Assembly (NCBI RefSeq): GCF_002305895.1
Contig: NZ_CP022203.1
Coordinates: 5,558,501-5,622,500, forward strand
Direction of reading: 5' to 3'
DNA length: 64,000 bases
From: Corallococcus macrosporus DSM 14697
GTDB lineage: Bacteria; Myxococcota; Myxococcia; Myxococcales; Myxococcaceae
The position numbers were made by a program, and so were the translations under genes. Positions within the stretch are counted from its first letter, which is position 1, and every line of letters starts with the position of its first letter. Positions 50,054 to 64,000 of this stretch are shown one piece after another. The notes beneath the pieces were generated by a model. The model saw only the letters and a list, made by a program, of their open reading frames with translations. It was not told where the DNA came from and ran no database searches.

Positions 50054-51892
50054 GTGAGCCCCCCTTCCGCGCGTCCCCGCGAGCTGGCCGTCACCGTGGA
50101 GACGTCGCTGCCCGCCGCGCTCCCCTCGCACGCCATCGAAGTCGACGTGGGGGTGGCCCTGCCTGTCGCCTTCGGCGGGCTGAGGAAGGTCCTCCGCGCG
50201 TGTGAGGCCGCCGCGCCCCAGGTCGTCCACACCCTGTCACGCGCCCATCCCTCCGAATGGAACCGGCTGTTTCCCGGGGCCATCGACGGGGTGCCGGACC
50301 TGGGAGACCTGGCGCTGACGCCCTCCGAGCGCCGGCTCCACCGCGAGTCGGAGCAGATGTTCTGGGTGCTCAACGTGGCCGCGAAGGCGCTGGTGGAGGC
50401 GCTGCGCGCCAGTGGAAGGCCGCTGGTGCTCCACGGCGCGGGCGAATGCGACCTGGTGAGCCTGCGCGCGGTGATGCGCGCCGCCGAGTGGAGCCGGCTG
50501 GAGGGGCTGGACGGCACGCTGCTGTTCACCGGGTGGAACGTGCGCCGGCCCCATGGGGCGGAGGCCTTCGAGGCCCGGCGGCAGGCCTACCTGGATGCGC
50601 TGTGCGACCGGATGCGCGCCCCCCGGGTGCCCACACCGGGGCCGGTGTCGTCGCGCGCGGTGGAGGCGCCCGTGGACCTGGAGGGGCGGTATCTCCAGCT
50701 CGCGGTGGACGCGGCCCAGGCGCCCGAAACGCGGGTGGCCGCCGCCATCCTCGCCATCCGGAGCTGCTTCTTCACCACCAACTATGAGGGGGCGATGCTC
50801 GCCGCCGAGCAGGGGCTGGCCGTGTTGGGAGCGAGCCCGGACGCGGCGCTGCCCTCGCGCGTCGTCCAGGCCTGGGAGGCGCTGGACACGGGCTTCGCCA
50901 CGCCCGCCATCGAGATTGACCGCGCCAGCCTGGGAGACGTGGAGGAGCTGAAGGCCCTGTTCGCGCGCAGCATGGGCGTGGTCCACGTCTATACGGGCGC
51001 GCACGACGCGGCCATGGCGGCGTTCGGCCGGGGACTGGAGTGCCGGATTCCGCCCGAGCTGGTGGCCCGGCTGCACATGTTCCGCGCGCTCACGCTGACG
51101 AAGCGCTTCGGGCAGCTCCCCAACGCGCGGGCGGAGGTGGCCGCGGGGCTGGCCGCGCTGGAGCGCAGCACGTCGGCGGATCGCGCGCTCCAGGAGGGCT
51201 GGCTGCGCAACGTCTGCGCGCTGACGTGGTTCCAGGAGCGCAAGCTGGACAAGGCGCTGGTGGAGGAGAAGCTCGCCATGCGCTGCGTGGGGGACCTGCA
51301 CGACGCGAGCGCCACGCACCTGAAGATCAACCTCATCTCCAACGCCAGCTATCTCCAGGAGACGGCGCGGCAGTTCGGCGACGCCATCTCCACGTGGCGC
51401 CGGTTCGAGAAGATCAGCGAGAGCTGGGGGGTGAACTTCGCCAAGCACCACCGGTACCGGCTGGCCGGGCTGGAGCTGGCCGCTGGAGAGCGCGACGCCG
51501 CGGTGGCGCACTTCACCGAGGCGTTCGCCAACGCCGACGCGCTGGGTGACTCCTTCCACCGGCAGGTGATTGCCGCGGAGCTGGGGCGCCTGTTCCTGGA
51601 CGAGCAGCAGCCCGCTGTCGCCGTGGACTGGTTCGCCAGGGCCGAGGAGCACGCTCGCGCCATTGGAGACCCGCTGAAGACGGCGGAGAGCCTGGCGGGG
51701 CAGGCCGTGGCGGCCGGCCGCTCGGACTGGTCGGAGGCGCGGCGCTGCGCCGAGGCGAGCACCACCTGGCCGAAGCAGACGGAGGCGCTGAAGGCGGCGC
51801 TCGCGCAGGGTGACGCGAAGGCGGTGCATGAGGCGCTGCCCCGCGCCCGGACGAAGCTCAACCGCCCGTTCGACCCGGTGAACCTGTACTGA
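50054..51892 (+). CDS. Large TPR-like helical repeat protein, unknown role
   Basis: The gene uses GTG with CGAGGAG six bases upstream. The 612-residue product has a non-repeat N-terminal part (1-205) with an A-G-E-C-D stretch, then a long array of helix pairs (205-600) resembling TPRs (for example A-G-E-R-D-A-A-V-A-H-F-T-E-A-F-A-N-A). I do not recognise a family. It has no membrane segment or enzyme motif. Its start region reads as a transport or signalling scaffold, but nothing beside it fixes a partner. Confidence 0.7.
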   Translation: MSPPSARPRELAVTVETSLPAALPSHAIEVDVGVALPVAFGGLRKVLRACEAAAPQVVHTLSRAHPSEWNRLFPGAIDGVPDLGDLALTPSERRLHRESEQMFWVLNVAAKALVEALRASGRPLVLHGAGECDLVSLRAVMRAAEWSRLEGLDGTLLFTGWNVRRPHGAEAFEARRQAYLDALCDRMRAPRVPTPGPVSSRAVEAPVDLEGRYLQLAVDAAQAPETRVAAAILAIRSCFFTTNYEGAMLAAEQGLAVLGASPDAALPSRVVQAWEALDTGFATPAIEIDRASLGDVEELKALFARSMGVVHVYTGAHDAAMAAFGRGLECRIPPELVARLHMFRALTLTKRFGQLPNARAEVAAGLAALERSTSADRALQEGWLRNVCALTWFQERKLDKALVEEKLAMRCVGDLHDASATHLKINLISNASYLQETARQFGDAISTWRRFEKISESWGVNFAKHHRYRLAGLELAAGERDAAVAHFTEAFANADALGDSFHRQVIAAELGRLFLDEQQPAVAVDWFARAEEHARAIGDPLKTAESLAGQAVAAGRSDWSEARRCAEASTTWPKQTEALKAALAQGDAKAVHEALPRARTKLNRPFDPVNLY

Positions 51893-52110: not shown

Positions 52111-52500
52111 ATGTCAATCGACCCGCTCAGCGCCACCTTCGCCGCACTCGCCGATCCAACGCGGCGCGCCATCCTCGCGCGGCTCTCGAAGGGTGAGACC
52201 TCCGTCACGGAGCTCGCGCGGCCTTTCGAGATGAGCCTCCCCGCCGTGACGAAGCACCTCAAGGTGCTCGAGCGCGCGGGGCTGATTACGCGGAGCCGCG
52301 AAGCGCAGTGGCGCCCCTGCCGGCTCGCGCCGAGACCGCTGAAGGACGCGAACGCCTGGCTCGAGCACTACCGCGAGTTCTGGGAGGCCAGCTTCGACCG
52401 GCTCGAGGACTACCTCGCCGACCTCCAGGGGCAGCAGCGCCCGGCGCGCGCCCGCAAGGTTCCAACCCCGAAGAAGCCCAGACGAGGAGCACCCACATGA
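52111..52500 (+). CDS. ArsR-family HTH transcription repressor
   Basis: The 129-residue protein is a standard ArsR/SmtB regulator. It has A-L-A-D-P-T-R-R-A-I-L-A-R-L near residue 13, E-M-S-L-P-A-V-T-K-H-L-K-V-L-E-R-A-G-L-I as the recognition helix (40-60), and a basic proline-rich tail. No metal-binding cysteines are present, so it is not a heavy-metal sensor of the classical kind. The stop overlaps the next gene's ATG (ATGA). Together they form the common ArsR-SRPBCC pair found in soil bacteria. Confidence 0.92.
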   Translation: MSIDPLSATFAALADPTRRAILARLSKGETSVTELARPFEMSLPAVTKHLKVLERAGLITRSREAQWRPCRLAPRPLKDANAWLEHYREFWEASFDRLEDYLADLQGQQRPARARKVPTPKKPRRGAPT

Positions 52501-52964
52501 ACGCAGCGCTCGACCTCAACGAACTCGCGAAGCGGCAACTGGAACTCTCGCGGCTGATCAGCGCCCCGCGCGCGCTGGTCTTCCAGGCCTTCACCGACGC
52601 CGAGATGATCTCCCACTGGTGGGGGCCGAACGGCTTCCGCACGACGACGGTCAGCAAGGATGTGCGCCCGGGTGGCGCGTGGAAGTTCACCATGCACGGG
52701 CCCGATGGCACCGACTTCCCGAACCACATCGTCTACACGAAGGTCATCCCCGACGAGCGGCTCGAGTGGGACCACGGCTCGAAGGAGGGCGAGGTGCTGT
52801 TCAAGGCGGTCGTCACCTTCAAGGATGAGGAGGGAAAGACGCGCGTCACGATGCAGCACACGATGCCCACCGTCGAAGCGCGCGAGCAGGCGGCGAAGTA
52901 CGCAATCGAAGGCGGCAAGCAGACGCTCGCGCGGCTCGAGCAGCACCTCGCGACGCGGCAGTAG
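52497..52964 (+). CDS. SRPBCC (AHSA1-type) domain protein
   Basis: This 155-residue protein has the START/AHSA1 fold: I-S-A-P-R-A-L-V-F-Q-A-F-T-D-A-E near 21, H-W-W-G-P-N-G near 40, and a C-terminal G-G-K-Q-T-L-A-R-L-E-Q-H-L helix. Such proteins bind a hydrophobic ligand in a deep cavity. It is encoded in the ArsR unit and is presumably derepressed with it. The ligand is unknown. No signal peptide is seen. Confidence 0.92.
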   Translation: MNAALDLNELAKRQLELSRLISAPRALVFQAFTDAEMISHWWGPNGFRTTTVSKDVRPGGAWKFTMHGPDGTDFPNHIVYTKVIPDERLEWDHGSKEGEVLFKAVVTFKDEEGKTRVTMQHTMPTVEAREQAAKYAIEGGKQTLARLEQHLATRQ

Positions 52965-53062: not shown

Positions 53063-54172
53063 TCAGGGCCCCGCCATCGCCACGCCGCGCAGGAGCCGTG
53101 CCGGAGCGAAGGGCGCGGCTTCCGCGCTGTCCCCGCGCGCCACGAGCTCCGCGAGCAGGGCGCCGGTATGCGCGCCCGTGAGAATCCCCTGCCCGCCCAG
53201 GCCCGTGGCGACGAACGTGCGCTGCGTACCGGGGTACGCGCCGATGTACGGACGCCCATCCGGCGTGGCGGAACGCAGCCCCGCCCAGGCGCGAACGAAG
53301 CGGGCCTCGCGCAGGCGCGGCGCCAGCTTCGCGACGGTGGCGCTCAGGTGCAGCAGGCCCGCCGGCGTGACGTGCTCCGCGAAGCCCGCGTCCTCCTCCG
53401 TGGCCCCCACGACGATTTCCCCCGAGCGCCACGGCGCCAGGTACGTGGGCCCGGAGACGACGCGCGTCAGGTGCAGTCCCGGTTGGTGCACCACCAGCAT
53501 CTGCCCACGCACGGGCTTCAACGGCAGCGCGGGCAGGCCCTCCACTCCCGAGGACCAGGGGCCCGCGCACACCAGCAACCGGTCCGCGCGCAGCACCTCG
53601 CTGTCCGTCTGGACCTCGACGCCGGGAGCCGTCTCCGTCACGGCCCGCGCCGCCACGCCCCGCCGGACCTGCACGCCCGCGCGCTCCGCGGCCTTCAGCA
53701 GCGCATCGACGTAGCCATCGGTGTCCACCAGGTGCCCCTGCCCCGTCTCGAAGGCGCCGTGGAGCGGCGTGCCTTCCAGCGCGGGCTCCAGCGCCACCAG
53801 GCTCGCGGCGTCCCGCCACGTGCCCAGCCCCTCCGCGTCACCCGCGGCCCTGGCCGCCAGCGCCTCCCGCGCCTTCGCGTCCGGGACGATGCGGAGGATG
53901 CCGTTGCCGCGCCGGAGCTGGCCGCCCTCGGGCAGCGCGCCCAGGTCCTCCGCCAGCGTGGCGCGGCCCGCTCGGGCGAACGCGAGCATCACCGGGTCAT
54001 CGAACAGGCGCACCGAGGGGATGGCCACCCCAGCGGCGGCGCGCGAGCCCCGGCCTCCCGGGTCCGCGGCGTCCAGGACGGTGACCTTCGCGCCCAAAGC
54101 AGAGAGCCGGCGCGCGGCCGAAAGACCGACGACACCGGCTCCCAGAATCACGATGTCTGCGCCGGGCCGCAT
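53063..54172 (-). CDS. FAD-dependent oxidoreductase, ThiO/DAO family
   Basis: From the ATG at 54172 the protein has 369 residues and matches the D-amino-acid oxidase family. The N-terminus has the FAD motif G-A-G-V-V-G-L-S-A-A-R-R-L, and near 300 a T-P-D-G-R-P-Y-I-G loop followed by A-T-G-L-G-G-Q-G-I-L. ThiO-type members oxidise glycine or other small amines for thiamine synthesis, but no thiamine genes are here. The GNAT-like gene ends two bases before this start on the same strand. With the LanB-type genes upstream, a role in modifying a peptide-derived amine is possible but unproven. Confidence 0.85.
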   Translation of the reverse strand: MRPGADIVILGAGVVGLSAARRLSALGAKVTVLDAADPGGRGSRAAAGVAIPSVRLFDDPVMLAFARAGRATLAEDLGALPEGGQLRRGNGILRIVPDAKAREALAARAAGDAEGLGTWRDAASLVALEPALEGTPLHGAFETGQGHLVDTDGYVDALLKAAERAGVQVRRGVAARAVTETAPGVEVQTDSEVLRADRLLVCAGPWSSGVEGLPALPLKPVRGQMLVVHQPGLHLTRVVSGPTYLAPWRSGEIVVGATEEDAGFAEHVTPAGLLHLSATVAKLAPRLREARFVRAWAGLRSATPDGRPYIGAYPGTQRTFVATGLGGQGILTGAHTGALLAELVARGDSAEAAPFAPARLLRGVAMAGP

Positions 54173-54173
54173 C

Positions 54174-54554
54174 TCAGTAGAGGCGCTTGGCGATGACGTG
54201 GAAGCCACCATCCACGTAGATGAACCCGTGCTTCTCCGCGCGCTTCACCACCGCGTCCAACTGCGTGGTGCCGAGGAGAATCTTGAACCCCAGCCGCGCG
54301 GACTCCGTGCAGATGGCCGCGACGATGAGGTCCACCGCCTCGTTGCGCTCCTCCTTCGACAGCCCCGGCGCGGCCACGAGGTTTTCAATCATGGCCAGCG
54401 AGCTGTCGGTCCGGTAGAGGAACCCCGCCGCCTTGCCGGGAATCACATACCCCGTCTGCGGCAGGCCGTCCGGCGTGACGACTTCGTCCCAGTGCTGCAG
54501 CCAGGACTTGATGTGCTCGAAGTGCAGCTCCGGGACGTAGGGGACGGGAGTCAT
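54174..54554 (-). CDS. GNAT-like small acetyltransferase-fold protein
   Basis: The 126-residue protein has a beta-alpha layout seen in GNAT acetyltransferases: G-K-A-A-G-F-L-Y near 40, A-M-I-E-N-L-V-A-A-P near 54, and G-L-S-K-E-E-R-N-E-A-V-D-L-I-V near 64. The C-terminal L-D-A-V-V-K-R-A-E-K-H-G-F matches the final GNAT helix. The acetyl-CoA loop is not obvious, so it could be inactive. It precedes the ThiO-like gene with almost no gap and follows the small 133-residue gene by 12 bases. Confidence 0.6.
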   Translation of the reverse strand: MTPVPYVPELHFEHIKSWLQHWDEVVTPDGLPQTGYVIPGKAAGFLYRTDSSLAMIENLVAAPGLSKEERNEAVDLIVAAICTESARLGFKILLGTTQLDAVVKRAEKHGFIYVDGGFHVIAKRLY

Positions 54555-54566
54555 CGTCCCAGGATA

Positions 54567-54968
54567 TTACGACACCAGGAACTGGGACATCCGCTGCGCC
54601 GACAGCTCGGCCGCGTTGTTCATGCCGAGCTGGCTCAGGCCCGTCTTGGCCGTGTTCTTCAGCATGTCGCCGATGACGTCGGTGACCTTGCTCTTGCCCG
54701 TGGCCAGGTTCAGCGCGCCGCTCAGCAGGCTGTTGCCACCCGCGCCGTCCATCAGGAAGTTGCTGGCGAACTTGCCCAGCGTGTTCTTGAACGCGCCGCC
54801 GCCCGGGATGAGGTCCGTCGCCGCGCCCAGCAGGGACTGGATGGGGTTCTTGCCCTGCGCCAGGCCGCTGGCGAAGCCCATCGCCGCGCCGAGCAGCGGG
54901 TTGACCATGGACACGAACGGCTTGACGACGTCCAGAACCTTGCCAATCGCCTTGAATGCCTTGGACAT
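54567..54968 (-). CDS. Small glycine/alanine-rich hydrophobic protein
   Basis: The 133-residue protein starts at the ATG at 54968 with a purine-rich AAAGGGG upstream. It is rich in Gly, Ala, Leu and Ser with helices such as M-V-N-P-L-L-G-A-A-M-G-F-A-S-G-L-A. There are no cysteines. I do not recognise a family. Candidates are a RiPP substrate, a small structural protein or a self-assembling export protein. Its placement downstream of the LanB-type genes and upstream of the GNAT-like gene is the only functional hint. Confidence 0.62.
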   Translation of the reverse strand: MSKAFKAIGKVLDVVKPFVSMVNPLLGAAMGFASGLAQGKNPIQSLLGAATDLIPGGGAFKNTLGKFASNFLMDGAGGNSLLSGALNLATGKSKVTDVIGDMLKNTAKTGLSQLGMNNAAELSAQRMSQFLVS

Positions 54969-55171
54969 GGTGACTGCCCCTTTCGAGCGTGACCGCGTGG
55001 CGGCCAGCGAATGTGTCAGATGTGAGGATTGTCGGAGGCTCGGGGCGATTGTTTCCCTGTTACCCGAAAAAACCGGACGCCGCGTGAAGTCGCCAGTAAA
55101 GCCAGGAACTTGAGGGAACTCCGGCGCCAGGGGGAGCCGCGCGGGGCGGCCCTCGCCCCCTCCGGCGTGGC
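54969..55171. other. Spacer between the two small genes
   Basis: About 203 bases separate the 149- and 133-residue genes. It contains a less GC-rich stretch (55015-55080) that may hold a promoter for the 133-residue gene. No repeat or RNA gene is seen. Confidence 0.4.
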
Positions 55172-55621
55172 TCACCCCTTCGGCTTCTTCTCCGAATTCC
55201 GCAGCTCGGCCGCGGAGGTGCCGGAGCGGCTCTCCGGGGCGCCCTTCTGGGCCGCGTCGGACGCGAGCGCCGTCTTGAAGCGGGCGTCGCCGTCGTCGGC
55301 GCTGAAGCCGTCCCGCTGGTGCGCGCGGCTGATGACGATGTCGCCGTCGATGATGCCCTGCAGGTGCGCCTCGACCTCGGCGATGGTGGGCACGTTCGGA
55401 TCCTTCGCCTTCAGCTCCTCGTCGGGGACGATCTGGATCTGCGGCGGCTTCTCCGGGTTGAGGGCGTAGTCGATGATCTTCTCGACGTAGTCCTCCAGGG
55501 GGACCTTGAGCAGGCGGGCCTGCTCCTTCACGTCCGCGTCGGCCAGCAGCTCCGCGCGAACCTCCTCCACCGGCCGCCTCAGCTTCTTGGCCGGGGGAGC
55601 GACGACGTTGTCACCGGACAT
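55172..55621 (-). CDS. Small acidic protein downstream of LanB-type gene, possible RiPP scaffold
   Basis: The 149-residue protein starts at an ATG with GAAGGAG at good spacing. It has an amphipathic charged N-terminal part (V-E-E-V-R-A-E-L-L-A-D-A-D-V-K), a P-P-Q-I-Q-I-V-P-D-E-E-L segment near 60, and a Ser/Thr/Ala-rich tail with charged residues. It has no cysteine. I do not recognise a family. The N-terminal half could act as a leader for a peptide-modifying enzyme, but nothing proves it is a substrate. Confidence 0.55.
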   Translation of the reverse strand: MSGDNVVAPPAKKLRRPVEEVRAELLADADVKEQARLLKVPLEDYVEKIIDYALNPEKPPQIQIVPDEELKAKDPNVPTIAEVEAHLQGIIDGDIVISRAHQRDGFSADDGDARFKTALASDAAQKGAPESRSGTSAAELRNSEKKPKG

Positions 55622-55727
55622 GGAATGTCTCCTTCTCAGGGCCTGCAATCCTGGCAAGGCGGGAAGCCCTGCCAGGCCGGGGAAGGAGCCATTCTGGTCG
55701 CGGATGCGGCCTGGATGTCAAAAATCC

Positions 55728-58025
55728 TCAGGCCGGCGCCGCGCTCCAGCGGGTGAACTGCATGCGCAGCTCACAGGTGTAGCGCCCCCGCGCGTCCTTC
55801 AGCCAGAGCTGCTCCGGCGCCGGGTACATCTCCTCCACGGACAGGCGCTCGGCGTCCCGGGCCAGGTGGGACAGCAGGTCCATGGCGAAGGGGCTGGCGG
55901 TGTCGATGAGGTACGGCTTGCGCTCCTTCGAGCTGCGCATGAACACGAAGCGAGGCCACCCGCCCGCGCGCCGCTCCCGCTGCACGGCGAGGAAGAGCTC
56001 GAAGCCGGCAGGCTTCCCCAGCCGCTCCGCCGCCAGGTTCCAGCGCTCGCGCTGATACACCGCGCCGCCCACGCTCAGCCGAGGCAGGTGACTGCCCTGC
56101 GTGCGCAGCGGCGCATGCAGCACCTGGGGATGCGCCAGCGCGGCGAACGGCGGATAGGAGGAGAAGTCATCCAGCGGCAGGTACAGGCTCAGCCGCGCCC
56201 CCTGCCCGTCCACCAGCACCGGCCCCTCCGGCGTGGGCTGCACCTTCACGTCCCCGGGCGTGAGGGCCCCCTCCTCCACGTCCAGCACGTCCGACACCGA
56301 GTACACCAGCCGCCGTCCCGGATAGACATAGAAGCCCTTGTTGCGCCGGCGGATGGCCAGCCCCACCAGCCCCCGGGCCGCGCCGTCCTTCTCCAGCCAG
56401 CGCGAGGCCACCGCCGCGTAGCGCTCCCGCTCCGGCTGGAAGGCGCTCAGCCAGCTCCACAGCAGCAGGTGGTGGTGGACGCGCGCCAGCATCACCTCGT
56501 AGCCGCTCCCGTCCGGCTTCGCGGCGAGGCACACGTCCGGCAACGCGTAGCGCCCTCCTGGCGACGACGTGCCCAGGAAGTCCACGGGCAGCGCGCGCGC
56601 CCGGGCGTCCTCCGGCTCCAGCATCACCGGGGGCACGGGTGAGAAGCGGCTGCCCGTCACGCCGTCTGGCCGCAGCCGCACGGCGTAGTCCAGCAGGTCC
56701 ATGGGGCCCGCGTCCGGCCCCAGCGCGTCCCGGACCTGCTCGCGAAAGCCCTGCTGCACCTTCTCGCCGTAGGCCGCCGACAGCTCCAGCGCGCCCGTCA
56801 ACGCCGCCTCCAACGCCTCGGTGAACCGCGCGCCGAAGCGCAGGCGGAAGGGCGAGCTCGCCTCCTCGTAGAGGATGAGCCGGTCCGCGTACACCTGCCC
56901 GTCGCCCCGGCGCGCGGGCTTGCCCGTGGCCTCGGTGAAGGCCGCCTCCAGCCGCGGCAACAGCTCGCGCCGCCGCGGCAGGTCCGCGCCCTCGAAGTCC
57001 GCCTTGAGACGCGCCAGGGCGTCCAGGCGCTCCAGCCACCGCGTGCGCGCCTCCAGCTCCGGGAGCGCCGCCACGGCGTCCCGCACACTCTCGAAGGTGG
57101 TGAAGTCATTCGGGCGGAACGGCAGGCCCCAGAGCAGCAGCGCGGTCTTCACCAGCGGCAGGGCCTGACGCTCGACGTCCACCACGGGGAGGCCGAGCAC
57201 CACCGCCGCCGCCGCGGGCGTGGGGTGTTCGCGCAGGACGGACAGCAGGCGCTCCGCCTCCGCGGACAGGGCGACGTCCAGCTTCAGCGGCTCGCAGTGG
57301 GCCCGGCCCGGCGTCAACGTGAAGAGCGGGTTGAGCCGCAGCGGCAGGTGCGGACGCAGCGTGCGCTCCCGCCCCACCGCGCGGGCCAGCTCCGTCACCG
57401 CCCAGAAGGAGAAGAACGTGCGGCGGCGCGTGTTGCCGCTGGGCACCGTGCGCACGTCGTAGCCGTCATCCGCGGTGCGCTCGCCATAGGAGATGGGGCC
57501 GAAGAAGCTGGTCGTCTCGTTCTTCGCGCAGAAGCGCTGGAGGTACGTGTAGACCTGCCGCTCGACACGGCGCGCGTCGGAGGTATCCGGCCGCTCCCCA
57601 CCGCGCAGGTAGCGGACCCAGACGTTGTCGAACATGGCCGGGCTGGAGAGGAACACCGCCTCCTGGATGGCGGGGTCCGCGGCCCGCTCGCGGAGGCGTT
57701 GGCGCAGCGACGCGCGCTCCGCCGCGTAGCGCGTCTGGGCGGACGCACGGCACGCCTGGTAGCGGCGCAGGGCCTCCTGACAGGGGGGGCCCAGGCGCGC
57801 GTCGATTCGGGGCTCGCGGCCCTGCGCCAGCGCGTCGAGGACGCCCCGCGCGCCGGAGGCGCCCTTCTCCGCGCGGACGGCCTCCACGAGCGCGTCCTCG
57901 GACTCGAGCAGCCGGGCGACGTCGTCCAGCACCTCCCGCGACATCCCGAGCGACTCCAGCCAGTCGAAGGGAAAGCCCGCGTGCCGCAGCACGAACACCT
58001 CGCCCAACGTCCAGGGCTCGCTCAT
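55728..58025 (-). CDS. LanB N-terminal-domain protein, first paralogue
   Basis: This 765-residue protein begins M-S-E-P-W-T-L-G-E-V-F-V-L-R-H-A-G-F-P-F-D-W-L-E and carries the lantibiotic dehydratase N-terminal motif near 160-180 (Y-L-Q-R-F-C-A-K-N-E-T-T-S-F-F-G-P-I). In LanB that domain transfers glutamate from Glu-tRNA to Ser/Thr of a precursor. The separate elimination (SpaB_C) domain is not seen. Lone LanB-N proteins also serve as peptide aminoacyl-tRNA ligases (TglB/AmmB type). The ATG overlaps the upstream gene's stop. A second paralogue is two genes upstream in the same transcript. Confidence 0.8.
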   Translation of the reverse strand: MSEPWTLGEVFVLRHAGFPFDWLESLGMSREVLDDVARLLESEDALVEAVRAEKGASGARGVLDALAQGREPRIDARLGPPCQEALRRYQACRASAQTRYAAERASLRQRLRERAADPAIQEAVFLSSPAMFDNVWVRYLRGGERPDTSDARRVERQVYTYLQRFCAKNETTSFFGPISYGERTADDGYDVRTVPSGNTRRRTFFSFWAVTELARAVGRERTLRPHLPLRLNPLFTLTPGRAHCEPLKLDVALSAEAERLLSVLREHPTPAAAAVVLGLPVVDVERQALPLVKTALLLWGLPFRPNDFTTFESVRDAVAALPELEARTRWLERLDALARLKADFEGADLPRRRELLPRLEAAFTEATGKPARRGDGQVYADRLILYEEASSPFRLRFGARFTEALEAALTGALELSAAYGEKVQQGFREQVRDALGPDAGPMDLLDYAVRLRPDGVTGSRFSPVPPVMLEPEDARARALPVDFLGTSSPGGRYALPDVCLAAKPDGSGYEVMLARVHHHLLLWSWLSAFQPERERYAAVASRWLEKDGAARGLVGLAIRRRNKGFYVYPGRRLVYSVSDVLDVEEGALTPGDVKVQPTPEGPVLVDGQGARLSLYLPLDDFSSYPPFAALAHPQVLHAPLRTQGSHLPRLSVGGAVYQRERWNLAAERLGKPAGFELFLAVQRERRAGGWPRFVFMRSSKERKPYLIDTASPFAMDLLSHLARDAERLSVEEMYPAPEQLWLKDARGRYTCELRMQFTRWSAAPA

Positions 58026-59578
58026 CCGTTCACCCTCGTCAGCACCGACCTGGCCACCAGTGTGTCCACCAGCTTCTCCCGCTGTGCCTGCGGAACGCCC
58101 CCGAGCGCGCTGGCCACGTCCGTGGGCCGCACGAGCCCCGCGAGCCTGGGCGCCAGCCGCGCGTCCATCGCGAGCACGGCGCCCGTGCGGAGGTTGGCCG
58201 CGAACCACGACGGCTTCGCCGCGCCGTCCAGCGCCGCCGGGAGCTGGACCCAGGCGCAGTCCACGTCCAGTTGAATGGCCGCCGCGCTCGCGGCCGTGGC
58301 ACGGGGCAGCGGCGCCTCGGGCAGGCACGCCGCGGCGACCCGCCCCGGGCTCAGCGGCGCGCGCGCGAGCAACCGCGTCGCCAGCGACGTGAGCACCCGG
58401 GGGATTTCGGCGCTGGGGATGGACCGCGCACACTCGAAGGGCAGGCTCCGGGCGAGGTCCCGGTCCTCGGGCGGCGTGCCCACGCGCACGTCCGGCCACT
58501 GCGGCGTGCACCCGCTGCGCGAAGGACTCCGAGGCCAGTGGAAGGGACGCACCCCGGCGAGGTGGTCGAACACCGGCTCCGCGCCGAGCGCGGCGAGCGT
58601 CGCGTCGAGCGCCGCTTCGTCCACGCCAGGCGCGCCGACCCACCACTCCGCCACGACATGAACCCCCGCGTCCCGCAGCCGGCGGGCACCGTGCGCCAGC
58701 GCCTCGCGGGGGATGCGCGCCCCCAGCGGGTCCAACCATCCGGCGCCATCCATGGCGCAGAACCCCACCACGGCCACCTTGCAGCCGCTCTCCACCAACG
58801 CGTCCGGCTGCAGGAGCGAGCCGAGCGAGACGTGCCCCGCCCACGCCGCCGCGCCGCCCGTGAGGGAGCGCAGCGCATCCGCGGAGGTGGCCCGCACCTC
58901 GAGCGACTCGGCCAACCAGACGAGCGACGCGGGCGACGCCTCGTCCAGCCGGGGCGCCACGCGCCAGCGCAGCGGGGGCGCCTCCACGAACGCGGCGCGC
59001 TGGAACATGGGCAGGCTCGACAGCGCGGCCCGGTGCGCCCACGCGAAGGGCCCCGCGACCTCCAGCGGCACCTGCTCCGGACACGCCCGCGCCAGCCAGG
59101 CCGCCGCGGGGAGCTGCAGGTCTCTTTCGAGCCAGAGGCGCACGCGCTCGGCGCGGGCGAAGCGCCCGGCGGCGAGCGTCAGGTCTTCCAGGTAGGACGC
59201 GGGCTGCTCCACGGCGCGCAGGACGTCCGCGCTCCGCTCCGTGGTGCCGCCCTCCAGCGCCACGTCGTCCAACCGGAGGTGCACCCCGTTGGGCGCCCCG
59301 GAGGTCGCGGTGAGCACGGCGCCCAGCGCGCGCAGGCCCGTGTTCACGCGAAGCCCTTCCCGGGCTCGCAGCGCCTGCGCGGCGCGCAACAGCAGCAGCT
59401 CCCGCATCGACTGCGCGGTGGCGGGGGCCCGCTCACGCGCCTCGGCCGCCGCCTCCACCGCGTCCCGGGCGAAGACGCGCTGGCAGAAGTCCCGCGCCAC
59501 GTCCAGGCACGTCCAGCCGTCGGGCGCCTCCGGGACGAGCGTCACGTCGCGGTGGGGCGGAAGGACGAGCAGCTTCAT
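58022..59578 (-). CDS. Radical-SAM-like protein without cluster cysteines, unknown role
   Basis: The 518-residue protein sits between two LanB-N paralogues with ATGA overlaps on both sides. No CxxxCxxC is present. The region near residues 255-330 (G-C-K-V-A-V-V-G-F-C-A-M-D, then R-R-L-R-D-A-G-V-H-V-V-A-E-W-W-V-G-A-P-G-V-D-E-A-A-L) echoes the G-x-E-S, R-x-A-G-I and F-I-V-G-L-P-G-E strands of B12-type radical SAM proteins. It may be a degenerate radical SAM fold kept as a peptide-binding partner. That reading is tentative. Confidence 0.55.
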   Translation of the reverse strand: MKLLVLPPHRDVTLVPEAPDGWTCLDVARDFCQRVFARDAVEAAAEARERAPATAQSMRELLLLRAAQALRAREGLRVNTGLRALGAVLTATSGAPNGVHLRLDDVALEGGTTERSADVLRAVEQPASYLEDLTLAAGRFARAERVRLWLERDLQLPAAAWLARACPEQVPLEVAGPFAWAHRAALSSLPMFQRAAFVEAPPLRWRVAPRLDEASPASLVWLAESLEVRATSADALRSLTGGAAAWAGHVSLGSLLQPDALVESGCKVAVVGFCAMDGAGWLDPLGARIPREALAHGARRLRDAGVHVVAEWWVGAPGVDEAALDATLAALGAEPVFDHLAGVRPFHWPRSPSRSGCTPQWPDVRVGTPPEDRDLARSLPFECARSIPSAEIPRVLTSLATRLLARAPLSPGRVAAACLPEAPLPRATAASAAAIQLDVDCAWVQLPAALDGAAKPSWFAANLRTGAVLAMDARLAPRLAGLVRPTDVASALGGVPQAQREKLVDTLVARSVLTRVNG

Positions 59579-61914
59579 TCCCGCGCGCCTCCCGCCGGAG
59601 CCGCGGCGGGCTCCGCGCCCCACAGCAGCGTGCAACGCAGCTCCACCGTGTGCCGCCCGCCCGTGGGGCTTCGCAGCCAGAGCTGGCCCGGCGACGGCAG
59701 CATCTCCGACAGGACGACCTCCTCCTTCTGCTCCAGCAGGTTGAGGAAGACGCGCAGCAGCGGCGGGCTGCGCACGTCCACCAGCACCGGCTTGCGCTCG
59801 TCCTTGAACTTCGCGAACACGCAGTCCGGCAGGCCCCTCGCGTCCCACACGGCCACGGCCGCCCGCAGCCGCGCCGAATCATCCCGGCCCTCGAGCAGCG
59901 ACTCCCGCTCCGCCTGGGACAGGCGCCACTGCTCGCGCTGCACCACCACGCCGCCCAGGGACAGGCGGGGGGTGTGCTCGCCCAGCGACACCCGCAGCGG
60001 GCGGATGCGCGGCAGCGAGAACGCCGTGTGCACCAGGCTCTCCAGCTCACCGTTGTAGAGGCACACCTCGGAGCCCAGCCGCTTCGACACCAGCCGGGCC
60101 CGCTTGCCGTCGCTCTCCACGAACAGGTCATCCAGCGGCAGCCGCCACGCGGAGGCCCGCGCGCTGACGCCGCCCAGCTCCACCACCGGCCCCGGGAACT
60201 CCGACGGCAACAGCCCGGTGCGCCGCGACGCCAGCACCGTCACCAGCGGCACCGGCCGGCTCAAGGCCCCGAGCGCCCGCACCATGGCGCTCTCCACCCG
60301 GCCGCGCGCTTCGTGGAACTGGAGCGCCCAGCCCCACACCAGCGCCGTGTCGTGCACGTCGCCCATCACCAGTTCGTACTCGCCCCGGCTCCAGGCCTCC
60401 ACGTCCCGGGCGCCCACCAGCAGGTCCACGGAGGTGACGAGCGGCAGCGCCCTCGCGTCGCCCGTCAGCGCCGGAGGCGTCACCTGGCCCAGGTCCACGC
60501 CGCGCGCGGCGGCATCCCCCACGGCGCCCGCGAGCACCTCCGCCACCGACCCATCCAATGGCACCGGCCGGTCCGCATACGCGGCCGCCACCTTCCAGAA
60601 CGGCACCGTGCGCGCACCCACCAGCCCCGCCACGGTGGCCCGGGCCGCCTCCCGGGTGCGCCGCGCCGCTTCCCCCATCCACGCCAGCGCGGGCTCCAGC
60701 CGACTCACCAGCTCGCGCGCCCGCTCGCCTCCGGCCTCCAGCCGCAAGTCGCCGCCGCACTCCTCCCGGAGCGCCAGCCGGTCCTGGTAGAAGTTGTGCG
60801 ATTCGGTGGCAGGCCCTCGCGCCGAGGGAGGCGTCACGCCCCACTGCTCGCTCGCGCGCTTCGCGAAGGCGGCCTGGAGCGCCATCTTCCCCGCGGCGTC
60901 CGCGGCGCCGTAGCCGGCCATCAACGCCAGCAGCGCGCTCAAGCCCTCCACGTGGCGACGGGCCGCGGGACACGGCAGGCCCGCAACGCGCTCGGCCAGG
61001 TCATCCACCGGGTGGTGCGTCGCCGCGGGCACCTCGAGCTGATGCGTCAGCAGCCCCTTCTCACACCCCATCCGGGCCGCCTCGCGCGCCAGGCCCGGAG
61101 CCACGCCCAGCGATGACGCGAGCCCCGCGAGCGTCCGCGTCCCGTCCACCGCCTCCACCAGCCGGGGCAGCAACGCCTCCGCGCTCTCCGGCGCCGGCAG
61201 CGCCTTGCGCGAGGGCACCTCCGCGAAGGCCTTGCGGCGCAGCACCAGCCACGCGGCCACCTCGGGGTCGAAGGCGATGGCGCGAACCAGCCCCTGGACC
61301 AGCCACGACGCCGCGAACGTGTTGCGCCCCGTCAGCACCTCCGGACCGGACCAGCGCACCGACACACCCGTCGGCGCCGCCGCGTCCGCCCGGCCGTAGT
61401 TGATGGGCCCGAAGAACCCCATCGTCTCGTTCTTCGCGCACATGCGCTGCAGGTAGCTGGCCACCTGTCGCCGCAGCCGCGCGCCATCGCGCCCGTCCAA
61501 CAAATCCCGGGCCACGGGGGGACTGGAGCTGGCCACCGCCTCGATGAAGCGCGGCGCCTGACGCAGCGAGCCCAGCGCGTCCTCCACCGCCAGGGACTCC
61601 TGCTTCATCGCGGCCTGGAAGGCGGCTTCAGCGGCCTGCGCCTCCCGGGCGCGGGTGTTCCATTCAGAGAACAGCTCGGGTGCGTCCAGGCCCTCGGTGT
61701 CCACCGGGCGCCCGGCCTTCAGGGCCGCGAGCACCGCGCGCGAGGGGCGCTTCACCCGGGGGCCCTGGGCCTTCAGCGCCTCCAGCGCCCGCCGTGCCGC
61801 CACCCACCGGCGGGCGGCCTCGGTGGCCTCCGGGCACCCCAGCCGCTCCAGCCAGTCAAAGGGAAAACCGGTGGTGCGAACCACGAGGTGGGGGAAGAGG
61901 GACCAGCCCGTCAT
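59575..61914 (-). CDS. LanB N-terminal-domain protein, second paralogue
   Basis: The 779-residue protein starts M-T-G-W-S-L-F-P-H-L-V-V-R-T-T-G-F-P-F-D-W-L-E-R and has Y-L-Q-R-M-C-A-K-N-E-T-M-G-F-F-G-P-I near 157-175, the same signature as its partner. The C-termini also agree (P-S-P-G-Q-L-W-L-R). It too lacks a SpaB_C domain. Two divergent copies suggest two sequential aminoacylation steps, or a heteromer. It is the first gene after a hairpin following the kinase gene, so it probably has its own promoter near 61920-61960. Confidence 0.8.
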   Translation of the reverse strand: MTGWSLFPHLVVRTTGFPFDWLERLGCPEATEAARRWVAARRALEALKAQGPRVKRPSRAVLAALKAGRPVDTEGLDAPELFSEWNTRAREAQAAEAAFQAAMKQESLAVEDALGSLRQAPRFIEAVASSSPPVARDLLDGRDGARLRRQVASYLQRMCAKNETMGFFGPINYGRADAAAPTGVSVRWSGPEVLTGRNTFAASWLVQGLVRAIAFDPEVAAWLVLRRKAFAEVPSRKALPAPESAEALLPRLVEAVDGTRTLAGLASSLGVAPGLAREAARMGCEKGLLTHQLEVPAATHHPVDDLAERVAGLPCPAARRHVEGLSALLALMAGYGAADAAGKMALQAAFAKRASEQWGVTPPSARGPATESHNFYQDRLALREECGGDLRLEAGGERARELVSRLEPALAWMGEAARRTREAARATVAGLVGARTVPFWKVAAAYADRPVPLDGSVAEVLAGAVGDAAARGVDLGQVTPPALTGDARALPLVTSVDLLVGARDVEAWSRGEYELVMGDVHDTALVWGWALQFHEARGRVESAMVRALGALSRPVPLVTVLASRRTGLLPSEFPGPVVELGGVSARASAWRLPLDDLFVESDGKRARLVSKRLGSEVCLYNGELESLVHTAFSLPRIRPLRVSLGEHTPRLSLGGVVVQREQWRLSQAERESLLEGRDDSARLRAAVAVWDARGLPDCVFAKFKDERKPVLVDVRSPPLLRVFLNLLEQKEEVVLSEMLPSPGQLWLRSPTGGRHTVELRCTLLWGAEPAAAPAGGARE

Positions 61915-61933
61915 GCGTTTCGCACCCTTCGTC

Positions 61934-61955
61934 CGGGACGCCGTCTGGCGTCCCG
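61934..61955 (-). terminator. Hairpin between kinase and LanB-type genes
   Basis: CGGGACGCC at 61934-61942 pairs with GGCGTCCCG at 61947-61955 over a four-base loop. It starts 12 bases after the kinase stop and ends 20 bases before the LanB-type start, on the - strand. No T tract follows. It likely separates the two transcripts or attenuates read-through. Confidence 0.55.
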
Positions 61956-61966
61956 CAGCGCGCCGC

Positions 61967-64000
61967 TCAATTTCGCGGCTGCGACTTCACTTCGATCTGC
62001 TGCCCTGGCACCGCCATCACCCATAGCTTGCTGACGCCGCTGGGGCAGCGCACCAGGACCTCCAGCTCCCGGCCCGCTTCGATTCGCGCCTTCAACAGCG
62101 GCGTGCCACCCGGCAGCAAGGCGCCGCTGACGTGGACCTCACAGCCGGGAGCCGCGCCCGTCACGCTGAGCAGGCCCGTGGTGCCCGGCTCCGGCGAGGC
62201 GTCCGCCAGCGTGCGCACGTCGATTCCCTCGCGCTGCTGCGTGGTCCCGAACCGCCGCAGCTTCCCGTCCACCGCCGTGGAGATGAGCAACGGGCCACCC
62301 GAAGGGTCATGCACGTCCGTCCCCGGCACGTAGCGCAGGCCGCCGACATAGACATGCTCGCCGGCCCCCACGTTGACGAAGCTGGAGTTCGTGTCGCGCG
62401 CCAGCACCACCGCCACCACGGCCAGCACCAGCGCGCCGCCGCCCGCGATGCCCAACCACTTCCACGGTGGCCGCTTGCCCGCGGCGTCGCTGTCGGGGGC
62501 GACGGCACGCGCCGCGGGACGCGCTGGAGCGGGCTCGGCGAGCCGCGCGGCGCTGGCCTGAGCGCCGTGGCCCTGCGCCGGTCCGGGAGGACGCGGCGAC
62601 GCATGCTGCGGCTGGGAGGCACGCGGCGATGCGGGCATGGCCGGCTGCGACTGGGAGGCACGCGGCGATGCGGGCATGGCCAGGTGCGGCTGGGAGGCGC
62701 GCGGCGCGGGAGGGGGCGGCGGCGAGGGCGGCGGCGGCGCTCCCAGGTTGAGCGGCACCACCTCGGTGCGGTCGTTCGCGTCGTCCTCGGAGACGGGGAT
62801 GCCCGGGAAGGAGTCATCCGGCGGAGGCGGCGCCGGGGGCCGCGACGCTGGCGCCGCGACACCGACGGGCCGAGGCGGGTGCGCCGTGGGGACCGGAGGC
62901 CCCGGACGGGAGAGGCTGCCGCTGCCGCCCGTGCCCGGACGGCTGCCAGCGACGGGCACGCTGCCCCGGCTGGGCGTCCGTCCATCCATGGGCGCGGACA
63001 TCTCCCCACTGCCGATGTTGCCGCTGCCGGTCCCCGAGGGCACGGGCCGCGGGTGGCTGCCCGTGCCGCCCACGGCGGAGGGCGCGAACTCCACCAGCCG
63101 GTCTCCCAGCGTGTCCTTGAAGAACTGGGCCACCGCCGCGGGCGACGAGTTGAGCCGGTGGTGCGCCATCACCGCTTCAATCTCCTCGCGCAGCGCCGCG
63201 GCGGACGGCGTGCGGCGCGCCGGGTCCTTCACCAGCGCGCGGAGGACGAGGTCGGAGACGTCCTGCGGGATGTTCGGCTTGAGCTGCGACGGCACCGGCG
63301 CCGGGTCCCGGACGATGGCCTGCAGCGTCGCCGCGTCGTGGTCCCTGCGGAACGGGAGCGTGCCGGTGAGCAGCTCGAAGAGCACCACGCCCAGCGCGAA
63401 CACGTCGTTGCGCGCGTCCAGCGTGCGCCCGGACGCCGCCTCCGGGGAGATGTACGAAATCTTCCCCTTCAGCACGCCGGCCTGCGTGTGCTCCTCGCCC
63501 GCCACCTTGGCGATGCCGAAGTCGCTCAGCTTGATGGCGCCGTCCAGCGAGATGAGGACGTTGTGCGGGCTGACGTCGCGGTGCACCACCGGGTGCGGCG
63601 TGCCCGCCGGGTCCACGTAGGCATGGGCGTAGTGCAGGCCCGCGGCCACCTCCGCCACGATGCGCAGCGCGTGCTCCAGCGGGAGCGCCAGCCCCTTGCG
63701 CCGCAGCTCGATGACCAGCTTCTTCAGGTCCGGCCCGCGCACGTACTCCATGAGGATGTACGCGACGCCGTCGGACACGCCCACGTCGAAGGTCTGCACG
63801 ACGTTCGGGTGCGTCAGCCGCGCGTTGGCGCGGGCCTCCGCGAAGAGCATGTCGACGAACTCGGGGTTCTCCGCGAACTGCGGGAGAATCTTCTTCATCA
63901 CCACGAACTTCTCGAAGCCCTTCACGCCCACCTGCTTGGCGAGGAAGACCTCCGCCATGCCGCCCTGCCCCAGCCGCCGGATGACGTTCAGCTTGGAGCT
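61967..64000 (-). CDS. Serine/threonine protein kinase, 5' end beyond the window
   Basis: The reading frame runs off the right edge; the first visible codons spell L-N-V-I-R-R-L-G-Q-G-G-M-A-E-V-F, the glycine loop. Then come a lysine (V-M-K-K-I), L-M-E-Y-V hinge, H-R-D-V-S-P-H-N-V-L catalytic loop, D-F-G-I-A-K activation segment and S-P-E-A-A-S. The domain is an RD-type Hanks kinase. A long proline-rich linker with 13-residue tandem repeats follows. A membrane helix is encoded at about 62399-62467. The C-terminal outside domain (P-G-C-E-V-H-V-S-G-A-L-L-P) resembles PEGA. The lanB-like cluster starts after its hairpin. Confidence 0.92.
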   Translation of the reverse strand, partial: SSKLNVIRRLGQGGMAEVFLAKQVGVKGFEKFVVMKKILPQFAENPEFVDMLFAEARANARLTHPNVVQTFDVGVSDGVAYILMEYVRGPDLKKLVIELRRKGLALPLEHALRIVAEVAAGLHYAHAYVDPAGTPHPVVHRDVSPHNVLISLDGAIKLSDFGIAKVAGEEHTQAGVLKGKISYISPEAASGRTLDARNDVFALGVVLFELLTGTLPFRRDHDAATLQAIVRDPAPVPSQLKPNIPQDVSDLVLRALVKDPARRTPSAAALREEIEAVMAHHRLNSSPAAVAQFFKDTLGDRLVEFAPSAVGGTGSHPRPVPSGTGSGNIGSGEMSAPMDGRTPSRGSVPVAGSRPGTGGSGSLSRPGPPVPTAHPPRPVGVAAPASRPPAPPPPDDSFPGIPVSEDDANDRTEVVPLNLGAPPPPSPPPPPAPRASQPHLAMPASPRASQSQPAMPASPRASQPQHASPRPPGPAQGHGAQASAARLAEPAPARPAARAVAPDSDAAGKRPPWKWLGIAGGGALVLAVVAVVLARDTNSSFVNVGAGEHVYVGGLRYVPGTDVHDPSGGPLLISTAVDGKLRRFGTTQQREGIDVRTLADASPEPGTTGLLSVTGAAPGCEVHVSGALLPGGTPLLKARIEAGRELEVLVRCPSGVSKLWVMAVPGQQIEVKSQPRN
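62611..62705 (+). repeat. 39-bp tandem repeats in the kinase linker
   Basis: The sequence GCTGGGAGGCACGCGGCGAT at 62611 recurs 39 bases downstream with one change, and a third partial copy follows. The unit encodes 13 residues (M-P-A-S-P-R-A-S-Q-x-Q-x-A) on the - strand. It lengthens a disordered linker and is probably prone to slippage. It is not a CRISPR array. Confidence 0.7.

Follow-up and report, generated by a model that had tools for sequence, protein, structure and literature searches.

A putative pearlin-type pathway in Myxococcus with an unlinked scaffold peptide, a clusterless radical-SAM-fold protein and a TPR partner

The window, a 64,000-nucleotide stretch at 5.56–5.62 Mb of an 8.97-Mb Myxococcus-type genome (G000:C1), holds a locus that quite probably specifies the enzyme half of a pearlin pathway divided between two loci; such a pathway would assemble an amino-acid-derived product on an Amm/Lyn-type carrier by aminoacyl-tRNA-dependent ligases. 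On the minus strand the genes run in the order Ser/Thr protein kinase, A (LanB-N1), B, C (LanB-N2), D, E, F (126 aa) and G, with an ATGA overlap at both the A/B and the B/C junction. The initial annotation had described two LanB-N proteins flanking a middle protein in overlapping genes, an architecture borne out by the PF04738 matches of A and C and by the ATGA junctions; to this A-B-C unit are added here the TPR protein J, read as a member of the system, and the conserved kinase gene upstream of A, both of which had been missed. The features are as follows.

50054–51892, plus strand: J, TPR protein with a conserved unstructured C-terminal tail (KLNRPFDPVNLY), 612 aa; 36% identity to Kitasatospora K1 (E 5e-88)
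53063–54211, minus strand: G, DAO-family flavoenzyme (PF01266), proposed BhaG/Amm14-like glycine oxidase, 382 aa; 49% identity to Kitasatospora K13
54174–54554, minus strand: F, 126 aa, part of an inserted module (54174–55621) judged to be outside the pathway
54567–54968, minus strand: E, 133 aa, part of the same inserted module, judged to be outside the pathway
55172–55621, minus strand: D, 149 aa, part of the same inserted module, judged to be outside the pathway
55728–58025, minus strand: C, PEARL-like LanB-N protein 2 (PF04738, residue test), 765 aa; 39% identity to Kitasatospora K5
58022–59578, minus strand: B, protein of predicted cobalamin/radical-SAM fold, no CX3CX2C, possible C-terminal RRE, 518 aa; 30% identity to Kitasatospora K4
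59575–61914, minus strand: A, PEARL-like LanB-N protein 1 (PF04738, PEARL residues), 779 aa; 40% identity to Kitasatospora K3
61967–63958, minus strand: Ser/Thr protein kinase (PF00069, 129 bits)

The kinase gene ends 52 nt before the start of A and is kept in this upstream position in Myxococcus, Citreicoccus, Archangium and the relative G033; no kinase gene was found in the Kitasatospora operon described below. It is probably co-transcribed with A, in a presumably regulatory role. Between J and G (window 52111-52964) lie genes for an ArsR-like regulator and an SRPBCC-like protein, for which the relatives compared gave no counterpart. The A-B-C locus has no dedicated protease or exporter gene next to it, Pfam identified no LanC in the scanned proteins of the unit, a PADLOC run gave no match, and a promoter/terminator scan gave results near the chance level.

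Both A (58.7 bits) and C (63.1 bits) match PF04738 above the cut-off of 28, and a Pfam scan found no PF14028 elimination domain in either, in agreement with what had been noted initially. The residues with which PEARLs use ATP to activate the peptide C-terminus have been published and comprise, in BhaB7 numbering, R34, D558, E575, H577, K763, E813, and R815 (PMC11962472, PMC12945691); they were located in A and C by published numbering, motif, alignment and spacing, BhaB7 itself not being part of the alignment. The suggested comparison with TglB/AmmB-type residues is favorable for A, which carries every listed residue with E575 replaced by D, while C has all of them but E575, which is Arg515; this Arg is invariant in 23 C homologues and is also found in Kitasatospora K5. 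A, C and all seven Kitasatospora LanB-N proteins carry the Tyr, Asp, His, Lys, Glu, and Arg of these positions, whereas in full-length LanBs from the same bacteria (n = 10) Tyr, Asp, Lys, and Arg are missing in 10/10 and His is missing in most. By these residues A and C look built for PEARL-type ligation, apart from the E-to-R change in C; given the Arg at the ATP-site Glu575 position, C may not be a standard ligase. Sequence searches of the PDB with the C profile and the B profile gave no useful relative. A third stand-alone PEARL-like LanB-N gene, which carries the PEARL ATP-site residues, is found in a PKS cluster (L062:10082-12388; G000:C1 about 4.275 Mb), where it is followed by genes for a 516-aa protein and a cupin-like protein.

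The likely carrier for A and C is a 56-aa Amm/Lyn-type peptide encoded in trans. This candidate scaffold (...EKLDEIEEIDFLLEEIESKIAPLALA, ending ESKIAPLALA) is encoded at G000:C1:2057658-2057828 and scores 55.2 bits against NF033737 (Amm_Lyn_leader, NCBIfam; curated cut-off 30); an ORF scan of the window and the fetched loci gave no scaffold near the window locus. A Rieske oxygenase gene (2057825-2058832; PF00355, PF19112) overlaps the scaffold gene, and homologues of the two are neighbors in 6/6 other genomes compared. The pattern K[IV]APLAL was searched in 61 relatives, with the reversed pattern as a control: the 25 Myxococcus genomes that have the locus all contain it, as does G033, and the two Myxococcus genomes without the locus do not, while the reversed pattern has no match in the genus. 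Over the Myxococcaceae relatives tested, the scaffold accompanies the A-B-C locus wherever that is present and is missing wherever it is not. The matches in a few distant genomes encode no such peptide where they were read. The scaffold ORF was read in 24 of the 25 locus-bearing Myxococcus genomes and in G033, the remaining genome (G005) having the DNA match alone, and the short peptides read end in EKLDE[IL]EEI[DN]FLL[EQ]EIESKIAPLALA. The co-occurrence of scaffold and locus gives a Fisher p of 0.003 within the genus and 1e-9 in the family sample, values that carry no correction for phylogeny. In the relative G148, the start of J lies within an ORF that ends ENKIAPLALA; after this pair of scaffold and J comes an SbnA-like gene (L135:6561-9625; 394 bits, cut-off 350), which hints at a diaminopropionate-type precursor. 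The link between scaffold and enzymes in Myxococcus, where the genes are 3.56 Mb apart, is thus drawn from their co-occurrence and from the two lineages with linked genes, G148 (scaffold with J) and Kitasatospora.

C, together with A, occurs in 25/27 genomes of the genus Myxococcus (Pyxidicoccus included) and in G033; B has the same spread and is found in addition in Citreicoccus, further Archangium genomes, and G148. The search for the same gene set in other genomes, as had been proposed, recovered at the locus a constant core of A-B-C-G with the kinase upstream of A; the small proteins were not part of it. A sequence titled Comamonas sp. KCTC 72670 (L069; BNCN01000007.1) contains the Myxococcus locus at 67-91% protein identity, and its label is probably wrong. 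Among Actinomycetota, for which the search covered a plasmid collection, a Kitasatospora plasmid operon (L101:3492-27826) encodes orthologues of J, A, B, C, and G at the identities listed above. Its order is J, LanB, A, B, C, then four LanB-N-like genes, an FMN-reductase-like gene, a TldD/E pair, and G, and it keeps the four-base overlaps around B; upstream of J lies an unannotated 40-codon ORF that ends ENKIAPLALA and scores 49.4 bits against NF033737. This operon connects J and G with the system on grounds other than myxobacterial synteny. The TldD/E pair of Myxococcus lies at 2.92 Mb, distant from the locus. The seven LanB-N-like proteins of the Kitasatospora operon, several of which have no Pfam match, may allow up to seven tRNA-dependent additions per scaffold.

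G matches the DAO family (PF01266, E 3e-58) and directly follows C in Archangium and G033. It had been called a ThiO-like oxidase, of which the flavoenzyme family assignment stands and identity with ThiO does not: against the ThiO equivalog TIGR02352 it scores 192 bits, below the cut-off of 250.8, and a distinct ThiO gene at 5.17 Mb scores 325 bits. BhaG and Amm14 oxidize a glycine that has been added by a PEARL and leave the amine behind (PMC11117183), and by analogy G is proposed to be a glycine oxidase of this type.

The structural model of B (pLDDT 85) has its best matches among cobalamin-radical-SAM enzymes (Foldseek E 7.5e-5), with Z 12.1 to AprD4 (over 270 residues) and Z 11.5 to TsrM in alignments of about 270-290 residues, so that the cobalamin-binding domain and TIM barrel of radical SAM enzymes are predicted for it. 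The CX3CX2C motif is found in none of 30 B homologues, Kitasatospora K4 included. Of the initial description of B as a cysteine-less radical-SAM-like protein, the resemblance therefore stands as a predicted fold, and the wording "cysteine-less" has to be corrected to the absence of CX3CX2C, since the window copy contains 9 Cys. Residues 433-518 align with the RRE of TbiB1 with Z 7.1 over 78 residues (rmsd 3.2), a value near the chance range, and the resemblance of this C-terminus to a PqqD-like winged-helix RRE is suggestive. Paralogues of B with 47% identity stand as orphans, without a neighboring LanB gene, in G144 (L150:10393-12228) and G105 (L151:9817-11532).

J is predicted to adopt a TPR fold (Z 21 to the TPR of LGN). 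J and B are present in the same 34/195 genomes, with the exception of G144, which has the orphan B only; a few other genomes, whose TPR- or barrel-type matches are very weak, are not counted. The gene adjoins the scaffold gene in G148 and in Kitasatospora, and since both lineages place the canonical scaffold beside J, the protein is interpreted as a binding partner within the system. A segment at about residues 82-101 (LTPSERRLHRESEQ; window 50297-50356) is invariant, of low model confidence and conserved as far as Kitasatospora.

The proposed pathway would begin with extension of the scaffold C-terminus by a LanB-N ligase, for which PEARL-type residues are present. The Rieske oxygenase would then oxidize the added residue in the role of BhaC1/AmmC1; no BhaC1-like enzyme was identified, and the oxygenase as its substitute is a guess. 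The second LanB-N protein would add another amino acid, which G would oxidize so that the amine is left, as BhaG/Amm14 do with glycine, and the product would be freed by the TldD/E pair, as it is by Amm12/13 in the amm pathway, which has four PEARLs (PMC12424672). An ammosamide-like step with glycine as nitrogen donor is plausible by this analogy, glycine oxidase, TldD/E and quinone reductase being documented enzymes of the bha and amm pathways (PMC11117183, PMC12424672). B would be catalytically degenerate and probably a scaffold-binding adaptor between A and C, and J would bind the scaffold or the enzymes as a TPR partner. More specifically, and with somewhat less than an even chance of being right, the clusterless fold of B may serve, without catalysis of its own, as an adaptor that keeps together two ligases (or one ligase and an altered C) and the carrier peptide, with the TPR protein as a further essential partner, in a multi-protein PEARL complex of a kind not described before.

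Because A and C belong to PF04738 and share its tRNA-binding motif, they might be taken for a split dehydratase of the class I lanthipeptide or thiopeptide type that glutamylates Ser/Thr. This is highly improbable, as the ATP-site residues of A and C are missing from full-length LanBs and PF14028 (SpaB_C) was found nowhere in the window genome by a search that gave matches in G018 and G033 as positive controls. The view of the initial annotation that the locus carries out peptide aminoacylation by TglB/AmmB-type enzymes, and is not a standard lanthipeptide cluster, is supported by this genome-wide result, by the PEARL-type residues and by the co-occurring Amm/Lyn-family scaffold. The part given there to the small proteins (149 and 133 residues, correctly noted to be without cysteines) as substrates and to a GNAT as the acylating enzyme has to be given up. 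A RiPP made from D and E is scarcely credible, although their genes are co-directional and most Myxococcus genomes have them between C and G: Archangium, Citreicoccus, and G033 keep A-B-C-G but have none of D, E, and F; G021 is without D and E and keeps only the GNAT-labeled F; and G031 has homologues of all three together with no LanB gene (L099:7228-9601). Their absence from relatives and this LanB-free trio mark them as an inserted independent module, and they were ruled out as substrates or pathway parts. F has no Pfam match that would support its "GNAT-like" label; it shows a weak match to the phage family phrog_17252.

A more substantial alternative, though still an improbable one, is that the tail of J is itself the carrier end extended by A or C, either in place of the PLALA scaffold or in addition to it. 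Few parts of J are as well conserved as this tail (11/16 columns invariant against a mean of 3.35), residues 602-612 are predicted to be unstructured (pLDDT < 50), and the phyletic spread of J is that of B; the final residue is variable, being Y, S or absent. A conserved tail could equally be a binding motif, the segment at about residues 82-101 is just as conserved, and the canonical scaffold is encoded in the same genomes and, in G148 and Kitasatospora, next to J. J as the sole carrier was dropped once PLALA peptides appeared beside it in these two. Within the pearlin reading, and compatible with it, A and C may act on the PLALA scaffold in a chemistry that is not ammosamide-like, without glycine as nitrogen donor and with G and the Rieske oxygenase performing other oxidations. 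This sub-case is a real contender, if one that falls a little short of even probability: a Rieske oxygenase is found instead of a BhaC1-like flavoenzyme, and the locus has two LanB-N proteins against four PEARLs in amm (PMC12424672), but the Kitasatospora orthologue of G is accompanied by TldD/E and an FMN-reductase-like protein, much as the amm glycine oxidase is by TldD/E and a quinone reductase.

Pearlin-type pathways are known in detail chiefly from Streptomyces, Bacillus, and Pseudomonas. No description of an A-B-C/J system with an unlinked scaffold was found in the searchable literature, and pearlin biosynthesis with an unlinked scaffold, a clusterless radical-SAM-fold partner and a TPR partner would be new. 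The pathway proposed for these genes is spread over much-studied bacteria, namely 25/27 Myxococcus genomes (Pyxidicoccus included), Archangium, and Citreicoccus, and it would escape tools that look for the peptide next to a LanB gene. The candidate parts, namely a carrier peptide with its two ligases, an oxygenase, an oxidase, and a further two partners of unexplained function, can be tested in a genetically tractable organism and raise the question of what a clusterless radical-SAM fold does between two tRNA-dependent ligases.

Among known systems, class I dehydratases of the NisB type have PF04738 and the tRNA-binding helix (Y..R) in common with A and C, but the window genome is without the elimination domain and A and C have ATP-site residues. 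In the TglB/3-thiaglutamate pathway (PMC9303977, PMC9016710) a small carrier peptide is extended by a LanB-N enzyme with aminoacyl-tRNA, as proposed here, and A and C contain equivalents of TglB R10, E542 (D here), E801, and R803; TglHI and the remaining tgl chemistry were not seen near the window locus, and the scaffold here is of the Amm/Lyn type. The cobalamin-dependent radical SAM enzymes AprD4, TsrM, and CysS have the fold predicted for about residues 1-407 of B (Z 11-12), but unlike these the B homologues are all without the CX3CX2C cluster motif. The amm and bha pearlin pathways (PMC11117183, PMC12424672) share with the Myxococcus system LanB-N proteins of PEARL type, a PLALA-ending scaffold and an FAD glycine oxidase (BhaG/Amm14; proposed for G), and with the operon of its Kitasatospora relative also TldD/E (Amm12/13). 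The Myxococcus system differs in having its scaffold and Rieske oxygenase in trans, no BhaC1-like enzyme identified and just two LanB-N proteins at the locus, and it has in addition B, with its clusterless cobalamin-radical-SAM fold, the TPR protein J, and a linked kinase gene.
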